Program-made: the position numbers and the translations under genes
The notes under the pieces: model-generated
Database searches by the model: none
The model's input: only the letters and a program-made list of their open reading frames with translations
What the model was told of the DNA's origin: nothing
NCBI RefSeq assembly: GCF_039545095.1
Contig: NZ_BAABRS010000002.1
Location: 620,001 to 684,000, forward strand
Reading direction: 5' to 3'
Length of the DNA: 64,000 bases
DNA from: Fodinibius salicampi
GTDB lineage: Bacteria; Bacteroidota; Rhodothermia; Balneolales; Balneolaceae
Shown: piece by piece, positions 25,907 to 30,556 of the stretch
Position numbering within the stretch: position 1 is the first letter of the stretch
How the letters are laid out: every line of letters begins with the position of its first letter

Positions 25907-26854
25907 TCAATTCTTAGCCTCCTTCTCTTTTTCATTGAGTACCCAGTTGACAAACAAAAATTCCAGGGCAGCTGCTTCAAAGCCTTCCCAACTGGAAATC
26001 ATTTGTTGAAACTCTTCTTCAGTAGTATTATTCGGATCGTCTCCATAGCTCATAATGATCCACCGTCGGTGACCTTTTTCTTTACCTTTGCTCTTATTGC
26101 TGGGAAAGACGGCATCCGTACGGTTGCGAAACAGCATCAGCTGTTGCGCCGAGGTAGGTCCCACGCCCCGCACTTCCTTAATGGCATCATAAAATGTTTG
26201 GGGATCGCAATTTTCTAATTCAGACAGATCCTGTTCGCCTGAAAGCAGGTCTTCAGCAAAACCGATAATAAATTCCCCTTTGCGTTTGGTGGGACCCAGT
26301 TTCCGGATACTCATAGGATTGGCCTTAACCAGCTGGTGCGGCCGGGGCCAGGCAGGGACATTTTCTCCCTGTGCCGTGACCAGCGAACCGTAGTTCTTGC
26401 GTACTTTGTAAACCATCTTCTTGGCTGTAGGCTTGTGGGAAAGCCGCATTTGGATAATGCGATTGATGGTATCTTCAAAGAGGTTGGCGCGGGCCATCCG
26501 TTTTAGTCCGTACAGGTCAGTAAGTTTGGGACCCAGAACCGGATCCTCAGCGGCCTTATCGTAGAGCGGACGCAAATCAAGTTCGGTACCAAAGATGCGG
26601 CTTAGGCTCTTATTAGCTTCTTCGATTTCGGATTTATCCAGTGCTTCATTACTCTCAAAATGAAATTCCGGCTGCTCCGGATTGCCGTTAAAAAAAGTGG
26701 TCACCATTACATCACGATTTCCTACAGGGATGGGACGGCGAAAGCCTTCTTCGAAAACATCTTCGGGGTTGTGCTCGTGATCGAAATACTGGTCAATATC
26801 GAGACACAAGAACCAGTCATGGGGTGGTATAGATTTTAGGGTCCAGCTACTCAT
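25907..26854 (-). CDS. HhH-GPD family DNA glycosylase, possibly without catalytic Asp
   Basis: A 315 aa protein resembling AlkA-type 3-methyladenine DNA glycosylases. The helix-hairpin-helix is EVRGVGPTSAQQLMLF (227-242), and the C-terminal SWEGFEAAALEFLFVNW matches the family's W-P-R-A-ALW region. Where active enzymes have an Asp a few residues after the FP pair, this protein reads FPSNKSKGKEKGHRR (250-264), so the catalytic acid seems absent. It ends the minus-strand run of DNA repair genes. It may be inactive, use another acid, or bind damage only. Confidence 0.75.
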   Translation of the reverse strand: MSSWTLKSIPPHDWFLCLDIDQYFDHEHNPEDVFEEGFRRPIPVGNRDVMVTTFFNGNPEQPEFHFESNEALDKSEIEEANKSLSRIFGTELDLRPLYDKAAEDPVLGPKLTDLYGLKRMARANLFEDTINRIIQMRLSHKPTAKKMVYKVRKNYGSLVTAQGENVPAWPRPHQLVKANPMSIRKLGPTKRKGEFIIGFAEDLLSGEQDLSELENCDPQTFYDAIKEVRGVGPTSAQQLMLFRNRTDAVFPSNKSKGKEKGHRRWIIMSYGDDPNNTTEEEFQQMISSWEGFEAAALEFLFVNWVLNEKEKEAKN

Positions 26855-27421: not shown

Positions 27422-29131
27422 TTAGTCGATAAAATGAAATGACGGATTATTACTCTGTTTTAGTCGGTCCCTATCAATTATTTGACGGTATAACTGTTCT
27501 ACCGTTTTAAGGGTATCAATATCATCGGGACCTAAATCCCACCGGATTTTTTTAAACCGGGGAAGCTTCAGCTTATAGTTAGCTTTGGTTCGTTTATTTA
27601 CCTGAATGTCATCAAATTTCAGTTCAACCACAATTTCCGGGATGAGTCCCAGGGTGGGACCATATGTCTCTACCGTCAATTCTTCAATCCGTTTATGAAA
27701 CTGCTGAATTTTGTCATCAGGACAACGGATCTCTGTTTTGCCAATGGGAATAAATTCTTCCTCATAGCGCTCATCTTCTGCTACCCGAATACCGAGCGTA
27801 AAATTGGAATAGTTTTTATCCTCGCTTCCGCCTGCGGTATGAGCGTACATAATTACTGTATGCAAGGTACCGGCTGGAGTTTTAAATGTTATCCATGCGA
27901 TACCAGAATGATTTGGGTTATATTTACTATTTATATCTTTCAGGATAAGTCCCTCGTTGCCGCGAGCCACTGCGCGTTTGGATAACTGATTTACTTCTTC
28001 TTCATCCGTAATAGTAAACTGATTGCTAATAGGAAAGTGATATTTTTTAGCGAGAGCTTCCAGCTTTGTTCGCCGTTTTGCAAGTTGCTGATTAATAGTG
28101 GGTTGGGGATGGGCATAAAGTATATCACTTGCAATGAAAAGAGCCGGAAACTTATTCTGGATTTCTTCAGAATGGGCCGTATGCTTTAAGCGTTTATGAA
28201 GTATTTGGTACGGGTGGATTTCATTTTCTTTGAATACGCAAATTTCACCGTCGAGGACCGTTTCCGGGAGTTCTCGTTTAGCGAAAAACTGTACAATGTC
28301 CGGGAAGAAACGGCTGACATCATCTCCATTTTCGGCGTACAGCCTGATCTTATTTCCTCTTATATGCAATTGGGTACGCAAGCCACTAAAGTTTTCTTCA
28401 GCCACATATTGGCTAAGGTCATGAGGCAGGTTATCTCTGGACGAAGATGCAAACATAAATGGCAGTGGCTGAAAGAGCGAAAATAGTGCTTCATCCAAAG
28501 CATCTTTTTTACAGAGAACCGCTGTCTTACCGATACTTCCGGAGATTGCATGAGCATAGCGAACCTCTTTTGTTTCCTGATCAAAAACATTAGCCAGCAC
28601 GGTAATCAGTTGCTGTTCGCCAAGGCCAATACCCGGAGTTTTTTGACTGAGGAGGTGAATATAAAATTTAATTTCTATCGGAGTCATTTGGCGCCAGACA
28701 CTGGCCAGTATTTTCTGCTTTTCCGTGCGTGTAGTATGTTTTGAAAGTTTTTCAAAACTGTCGGAGATGTCCACCAAGCTAAGGTTAGCGGGTACTCTTT
28801 TCTCCCGGGCTGTTTCTATGTTCTCCATCAGTTTTTCAATAGCCTCTGCTGCACTTCCAATCGCTTTTTTGCAGGGTTTGAACACTTTTTGATAATCCAC
28901 TTCGCAAAAACGGGCTGCGCACATAGAGTAAGTTCGGCTGCCTGCTGTGGCTCGTTTTGCGGAGAGTGCAGGCATTGGGCCTTCTCCCAGGAATTGAGCC
29001 GCCAGTTTAATATCGGTATCCGAATGCAGCGATCGGAAATAATTGGCGCATATCGCTACTTTGGAAGGCGCATCCGGTGCTTCAGAAATCTGTTGTGCGT
29101 TTTCCGCCCATTGTTGAAAAGTGTCAGACAT
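27422..29131 (-). CDS. ATP-dependent DNA ligase-like protein with degenerate motif I
   Basis: A 569 aa protein with the layout of archaeal-type ATP-dependent ligases. It has an N-terminal DNA-binding domain (about 1-215, including IKFYIHLLSQKTPGIGLGE), an adenylation domain (about 220-420) and a C-terminal OB fold (about 425-569). Motif III VLDGEICVF (292-300) and motif IV EGLILKD (393-399) are present. Motif I, normally KxDGxR, reads ENFSGLR (246-252): N247 (codon at 28391-28393) replaces the adenylated lysine and S249 the Asp. Motif V reads WITFK instead of a WxKxK-type sequence. It follows the MBL exonuclease by 27 bp. It may be a non-catalytic end-binding partner, or a decayed gene kept in frame. 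Confidence 0.85.
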   Translation of the reverse strand: MSDTFQQWAENAQQISEAPDAPSKVAICANYFRSLHSDTDIKLAAQFLGEGPMPALSAKRATAGSRTYSMCAARFCEVDYQKVFKPCKKAIGSAAEAIEKLMENIETAREKRVPANLSLVDISDSFEKLSKHTTRTEKQKILASVWRQMTPIEIKFYIHLLSQKTPGIGLGEQQLITVLANVFDQETKEVRYAHAISGSIGKTAVLCKKDALDEALFSLFQPLPFMFASSSRDNLPHDLSQYVAEENFSGLRTQLHIRGNKIRLYAENGDDVSRFFPDIVQFFAKRELPETVLDGEICVFKENEIHPYQILHKRLKHTAHSEEIQNKFPALFIASDILYAHPQPTINQQLAKRRTKLEALAKKYHFPISNQFTITDEEEVNQLSKRAVARGNEGLILKDINSKYNPNHSGIAWITFKTPAGTLHTVIMYAHTAGGSEDKNYSNFTLGIRVAEDERYEEEFIPIGKTEIRCPDDKIQQFHKRIEELTVETYGPTLGLIPEIVVELKFDDIQVNKRTKANYKLKLPRFKKIRWDLGPDDIDTLKTVEQLYRQIIDRDRLKQSNNPSFHFID

Positions 29132-30130: not shown

Positions 30131-30556
30131 TTAAATGGCTCGTTCAACAACTGAGTATGCTAACAGAAGTATAGCAAATCCCACTGACACCATTATGGCA
30201 CCACTCTTGCGGATGGAAGAAACCAGTTGCTCCTGCTTGTTTTGGATGAGCGTGCGGCTTTGGTCCCAGCGGACAAGTTGAACTCCTGTAATATACATAA
30301 GTAATAAACTCCATATACAGAACAGAAGTTCAATCCAGGAAAAAGGGAGGAAAGCGAGAATAAGTCCCGGGAGGGTAAAAAGAGTCAGATATTTTAGGAT
30401 GCGAATGAGCAGAACAGGAGGTTTCTTATTCTCGGCAACGCGAAGCAACCATTTTTTGATAACTGTAGGACGAAATGTTAGATAGCATCCACCGCTTATA
30501 AATAGTAATCCCAGGATGGCATAATAAATCAGAAACCATTTGGTGGAAAAGGGCAT
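30131..30556 (-). CDS. Small membrane protein of unknown function
   Basis: A 141 aa protein with about four hydrophobic segments (near 5-27, 55-72, 74-93 and 117-137) and basic loops. No family is recognised. Gaps of 9 bp to terC and 6 bp to the exonuclease gene show that it is part of one operon. Confidence 0.7.
   Translation of the reverse strand: MPFSTKWFLIYYAILGLLFISGGCYLTFRPTVIKKWLLRVAENKKPPVLLIRILKYLTLFTLPGLILAFLPFSWIELLFCIWSLLLMYITGVQLVRWDQSRTLIQNKQEQLVSSIRKSGAIMVSVGFAILLLAYSVVERAI

Follow-up and report, generated by a model that had tools for sequence, protein, structure and literature searches.

In the window, by which we mean the whole 64,000-nucleotide stretch of Fodinibius salicampi contig NZ_BAABRS010000002.1 analyzed here, a minus-strand open reading frame encodes a LigB-like ATP-dependent DNA ligase whose frame is intact over 569 residues, with an ATG start and no internal stop, and whose catalytic motifs are degenerate (Table 1). 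The frame starts 27 bases beyond the end of a gene for a ligase-associated exonuclease, which itself is preceded by a small membrane protein that may be part of the same module. Hereafter, we refer to the genome of the window as G000 and to its relatives as G001 and so forth, while ligase loci are labeled L.

Table 1. Features of the ligase-exonuclease module and its surroundings, in positions of the window.
Feature	Position	Strand	Remarks
Predicted pseudoligase ORF, 569 aa	27422..29131	-	LigB-like ATP-dependent DNA ligase: PF04675 DBD, PF01068 NTase and OB fold
DBD	28487..29131	-	residues 1-215, boundary approximate
Degenerate NTase domain	27857..28486	-	residues 216-425, boundary approximate
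Motif I core E-E-N-F-S	28385..28399	-	residues 245-249
K247N	28391-28393	-	codon AAC
D249S	28385-28387	-	codon AGT
Motif Ia R267E	28331..28333	-	alignment with active relatives
Motif V K415T	27887..27889	-	alignment with active relatives
OB domain	27485..27856	-	residues 426-549, boundary approximate
C-terminal tail with RLKQxxxPSF	27422..27484	-	candidate interaction tail
Ligase-associated metallo-beta-lactamase/beta-CASP exonuclease, 321 aa	29159..30124	-	TIGR04122 family, metal motifs
Small membrane protein	30131..30556	-	in many Balneolales genomes, the gene immediately before that of the exonuclease
HhH (AlkA/OGG-like) protein	25907..26854	-	two genes downstream; many relatives also have it close to the module

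Descent from ATP-dependent ligases is borne out by matches to PF04675 (59.9 bits) and PF01068 (105.7 bits), both above the gathering score; the protein falls below the curated equivalog cut-offs of TIGR04120 (225.3 versus 400 bits) and PRK09247 (236.4 versus 543 bits). Reread from the minus strand, the codons GAA GAA AAC TTT AGT GGC TTG CGT near 28393 give EENFSGLR where aligned relatives have the canonical motif I EEKFDGMR, and in comparison with solved ligases N247 and S249 align within motif I (E-I-K-Y-D-G-A-R) of the 2cfm enzyme. The K-x-D-G signature of functional ligases, with its adenylated lysine, is hence replaced by N247-F-S249-G; the AAC codon lies one base from Lys, and AGT two bases from Asp. 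Motif V is WITFK instead of WLKVK (K415T, with the second lysine, K417, retained), while motifs III and IV keep the DGE and EG of functional ligases (LDGEIC and NEGLILK). All of this agrees with a sequence-only reading of the locus, which had reported ENFSGLR, the lost motif V lysine, and the preservation of motifs III and IV and of full length. That reading had missed further losses: motif Ia has changed from SRDLN to AENGD, including R267E, and the OB domain carries D443N, Y467E, Y470C, and R522K at positions where 89 active relatives show at least 95% invariance, which leaves the protein without the motif Ia Arg, the motif V K-x-K, and the OB residues D443, Y467, and R522 of a functional ligase. 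Across the 170 positions that are at least 95% invariant in the 89 active ligases, the window protein differs at about 50, with about 30% lost in each domain. Judged by these residues, catalysis is lost in the window ligase. An AlphaFold model had a mean pLDDT of 35 and was left out of the analysis. At the C terminus, many ligases of family f1 conserve the RLKQxxxPSF motif, which may be a partner-binding tail; it is retained in the degenerate congener G011, occurs as HQLGQHSTPSF in G001, and is found in many active relatives, and in the tail comparison it was not retained in dead lineages outside G000, G001, and G011.

The adjoining exonuclease has intact metal motifs (HAHADH, AGHILGS, GDYRT, and SDHLDF). 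It thereby shows the metal-binding MBL motifs and the position beside a ligase that mark TIGR04122, with a score of 190.6 bits versus the curated equivalog cut-off of 325 bits. Glycosylases usually have P-x-D at a site where nearly every member of the HhH protein's family shows F-P-S-N/H/R, and to judge from this motif the canonical catalytic Asp may be missing.

A sequencing error, one of the explanations offered in the sequence-only reading, can be set aside: because about 50 invariant positions are altered, a base-call error cannot account for the dead motif, and the changes are dispersed and the sister genomes are degenerate as well. A survey that began with 59 relatives and went on to 245 genomes of the class showed the ligase to be widespread in the Balneolales. 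In the alignment of Balneolales ligases, the canonical lysine is replaced by N in G000 and by E in G011, and every other full-length genus member retains the motif I lysine. Lysine in close relatives had been named beforehand as an observation that would speak against a selected loss; most congeners indeed carry it, but degeneracy extends to the nearest relatives. In a quick PMSF tree of 57 taxa, built on exonuclease, DBD, and OB columns, {G000,(G001,G011)} formed a single clade within the genus with a support of 100.

Within this clade the module evolves rapidly. Compared to active congeners, distances were 0.84-1.27 versus 0.23-0.43 for the DBD, 1.04-1.30 versus 0.19-0.46 for the NTase, 0.55-0.73 versus 0.06-0.15 for the OB domain, and 0.48-0.62 versus 0.15-0.25 for the exonuclease, i.e., rates that are 3-6x faster for the ligase domains and about 2.5x faster for the exonuclease. 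That this acceleration stems from a host lineage that is deep or fast-evolving was ruled out by a LigA tree, which recovered the clade {G000, G001, G011} with ordinary branch lengths (0.27-0.34 versus 0.19-0.33), and by the conserved flanking genes, which are not accelerated (G000-G011 identity of 96% for TerC and 88% for the HhH protein, as compared to 64% for the exonuclease and 51% for the ligase). The acceleration indicates that constraint was relaxed. It fits the idea that the exonuclease-ligase module as a whole is under relaxed selection and decaying, where ligase catalysis was lost first and the rest is to follow, as do the loss of about 30% of invariant residues per domain and the absence of the module from many relatives, including the congener G006, with whole-module loss being common in the order.

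Selection was estimated with a codon model. With a separate clade ω, one per partition, and with values that are approximate given the high synonymous divergence, the foreground ω was 0.16 for the DBD, 0.20 for the NTase, 0.17 for the OB domain, and 0.18 for the exonuclease, against background values of 0.07, 0.07, 0.03, and 0.05, respectively. Setting the clade ω to 1 cost 78 (DBD), 49 (NTase), 41 (OB), and 118 (exonuclease) log-likelihood units and was rejected throughout (2ΔlnL of 156, 99, 82, and 236). On the G000 tip, neutrality was rejected for the DBD (ω of 0.14, 2ΔlnL of 13.3), marginally rejected for the OB domain (ω of 0.20, 2ΔlnL of 4.1, p about 0.04), and not rejected for the NTase (ω of 0.46, 2ΔlnL of 0.5), whereas on the G011 tip it was rejected in DBD, NTase, and OB (2ΔlnL of 11.6, 5.7, and 3.9); both tip branches include some time preceding the lysine loss. 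The dN/dS check proposed in the sequence-only reading came out in favor of constraint in all three ligase domains of the clade, with a marginal OB signal and no NTase signal on the G000 tip alone. These results show purifying selection for the clade and for the DBD. Since G011 and G001 share the degenerate state and ω = 1 is rejected in every domain, simple decay of the pseudoligase is unlikely; slow decay of the module retains some probability, given the relaxed constraint.

Inactivation of the ligase was observed to recur. Full-length copies without the motif I lysine occur in G000 (N), G011 (E), G055 (M), G104 (E), and G125 (M). In G001 and G124, the motif I lysine is present and other catalytic residues are gone, and we judged these two copies dead because a set of five residues, T89, D443, Y467, Y470, and R522, is wholly (G124) or mostly (G001) lost. 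Supported branches required dead ligases to have arisen separately at least five times in the Balneolales, and parsimony gave 7. In G036, G050, and G047 (the last with a DBD match below the Pfam cut-off), the NTase domain is missing altogether and the DBD runs straight into the OB domain in one frame; the G036 frame sits in the interior of a contig of 289 kb, from a genome that is 98% complete. A single open reading frame of G118, at a contig edge, comprises the exonuclease end, the DBD, and the OB domain without an NTase. The alignment is less certain for the NTase-less copies, and several of the dead lineages are draft MAGs, with G000, G001, G011, G036, G320, G323, and G471 being of high quality. 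A second, frame-broken TerC-membrane-exonuclease-ligase copy (L053, in G024) looks like either a decayed duplicate or poor sequence from another strain.

Outside the Balneolales, the lysine was present in 58 of the 61 Bacteroidota ligases sampled, and dead copies with intact frames were found in G323 and G320 (family f33) and in G471 (family f45). Against this retention, and that in the genus, the loss in the window ligase is far from what chance would give. The degenerate LigB loci of these two other Bacteroidota families, L202, L219, and L221, have no adjacent helicase; two of them adjoin an exonuclease, and for L221 (G471) it is located elsewhere in the genome.

The dead copies lose and keep particular residues. 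Roughly a fifth to two fifths of the invariant positions are gone per domain in the full-length ones. Counting one representative per dead lineage (n = 9, some of which may share an origin), we found 8 OB positions lost in at least 8 lineages (0.14 expected) and 12 never lost (0.64 expected), and, in the DBD, 4 lost in at least 8 lineages (0.12 expected) and 5 never lost (0.24 expected), counts that were reached by 0 of 10,000 shuffles. The five-residue set was lost in 9/9 dead Balneolales lineages, whereas its members D443, Y467, and R522 are present in 54/54 canonical Bacteroidota ligases. Among the OB residues never lost are Y429, T445, R455, E503, N512, and R514, which may mark the core of the fold and not a surface for a partner. 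The three dead copies from outside the Balneolales have lost Y467 and D443 and kept R514, Y429, and G491. This repeated pattern defines two classes of constraint, one that is released with catalysis and one that is not.

Several observations speak against progressive decay of the module: frames are intact in three deeply separated species, ω is 0.16-0.20 with neutrality rejected, the exonuclease metal motifs are untouched, losses and retentions recur across nine lineages far beyond chance, and several genomes removed the NTase in frame while keeping the DBD and OB domains. We therefore consider such decay unlikely. Recent inactivation, as had also been proposed from the sequence, is similarly disfavored by a clade that is degenerate as a whole, by purifying selection, and by the recurrence of inactivation. 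The suggestion of a selected noncatalytic role, on the other hand, gained support from the clade-wide degeneracy, the purifying selection, and the independent recurrence with DBD and OB kept.

Lysine mutants in some ligase families retain step-3 activity, for which the lysine nucleophile is not needed, and the window protein, which retains its domain order along with motifs III and IV, might accordingly still seal pre-adenylated nicks, using AppDNA left by other ligases. However, D249, R267, K415, Y467, and R522 are lost as well, and G036, G050, G047, and G118 have no NTase domain at all, which makes this sealing activity very improbable.

The exonuclease, in turn, was found to vary with the state of its ligase. 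Its metal motifs are intact beside every dead ligase that has a readable exonuclease, yet residue 265, which is Gln in 87/88 partners of active ligases and Tyr in the window exonuclease, is replaced in 9/9 partners of dead ligases (Y, G, R, R, R, R, G, Y, and A). The association between this residue and the ligase state held in 7/7 lineages and was matched by 0 of 20,000 permutations; on supported branches, it held in 5/5 independent contrasts (sign test p of 0.06, the minimum for five pairs). The exonuclease of G090 lacks Q265 although it adjoins an active ligase. Together with the intact metal motifs, the change at residue 265 indicates that the exonuclease responds to the catalytic state of the ligase while keeping its own active site. 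Gln265 sits between beta-CASP motifs B and C and is a possible coupling site. Balneolales genomes without the ligase also lacked the exonuclease, e.g., G006, G014, G063, G012, and G053; the few single hits are at contig edges or fragmentary, and G106 is ambiguous. The G118 fusion and the known MBL-LigB fusions are consistent with the exonuclease and the ligase acting together.

Coupling of ligase and exonuclease, as read from these comparative data, bears on the proposal that the dead ligase has taken up a role unrelated to the exonuclease, e.g., as a DNA-end-binding or regulatory protein, with the pairing being mere inherited synteny. The gene order is inherited and the dead copy of G471 lies apart from its exonuclease, but the joint presence and absence, the G118 fusion, and the coupled change at residue 265 leave this proposal with an even smaller probability than AppDNA sealing. 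Least credible of all is an ordinary active ligase with a rearranged active site and another nucleophile; the retention of motifs III and IV and of a lysine in motif V speaks for it, but motif I is without any lysine and D443, Y467, and R522, invariant in all canonical Bacteroidota ligases checked, are lost.

The window ORF is the one PF01068 protein of G000, which rules out a takeover by a second ATP-dependent ligase, and no second such protein was found in G000, G001, G011, or G055. The only other ligase found in G000 is an NAD-dependent LigA with a KFDG motif, and LigA is present in 24/25 genomes checked, the exception being a 76%-complete MAG. G001 (L143) and G009 (L168) each carry a second, divergent NAD-dependent LigA paralog. 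The ligase-associated DEXH helicase of the four-gene operon was not found in G000 (best 65.7 bits versus a cut-off of 850); of the loci retrieved, 36 from outside the Balneolales and one from within the order have the canonical-operon helicase next to the ligase, and it adjoined no dead ligase among the loci examined. A scan of viral contigs yielded distant NTase relatives only.

The best explanation, which we consider probable, is that the pseudoligase is kept as a DNA-binding partner of the exonuclease, with LigA doing the sealing. A LigB-type ligase that can presumably no longer form the ligase-AMP intermediate would bind a nick, gap, or broken end through its DBD and OB fold; thus bound, these domains would act as a platform that positions or regulates the exonuclease at damaged DNA, in physical contact with it, after which the trimmed DNA would be handed off to and sealed by NAD-dependent LigA. 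The earlier idea that the protein may hold DNA ends for the exonuclease fits the pairing, the one fusion, and the residue 265 data. On a more general proposal we are evenly divided: that ligases of the exonuclease module have a catalysis-independent DBD and OB core function that suffices for retention of the gene and repeatedly became pseudoligases, with the catalytic domain removed in some lineages, and that residue 265 of the exonuclease switches in step with ligase catalysis and might indicate where nuclease and ligase are coupled.

The closest known system is LigB (TIGR04120/PRK09247), with the same DBD-NTase-OB order, an MBL exonuclease as operon partner, and known MBL-ligase fusions; the Lhr helicase-phosphodiesterase-MBL exonuclease-ligase operon was described in PMC10140301 (citing Ejaz and Shuman 2018). 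Unlike LigB, the window protein lacks the catalytic lysine and several other catalytic residues and scores below the curated cut-offs, and G000 has no ortholog of the operon helicase. MBL-LigB fusions from Opitutus terrae and Antarctic metagenomes (PMC10140301) resemble G118 in joining the exonuclease to the ligase DNA-binding domain, but they keep the ligase domains where G118 has no NTase. That such a noncatalytic role is possible is shown by inactive LIG4 K273A (PMC9638927) and Dnl4 K466A (PMC3694833), which promote repair that is finished by another ligase. By analogy, the pseudoligase may work in a like manner, with repair completed by a different ligase; those proteins, however, are laboratory mutants of an NHEJ ligase, whereas the inactive form described here is natural, bacterial, evolutionarily repeated, and paired with an exonuclease. 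The open-access literature searched yielded no natural DNA pseudoligases, and the novelty of the finding is relative to that literature.

The repeated origin of pseudoligases constitutes a natural experiment that splits catalytic from noncatalytic constraint in a DNA ligase. It names specific residues for testing, by which the role of a widespread bacterial repair module becomes testable. Whatever the role of the module, several lineages can do without ligation by its own ligase, yet they retain the DBD, the OB domain, and the exonuclease.
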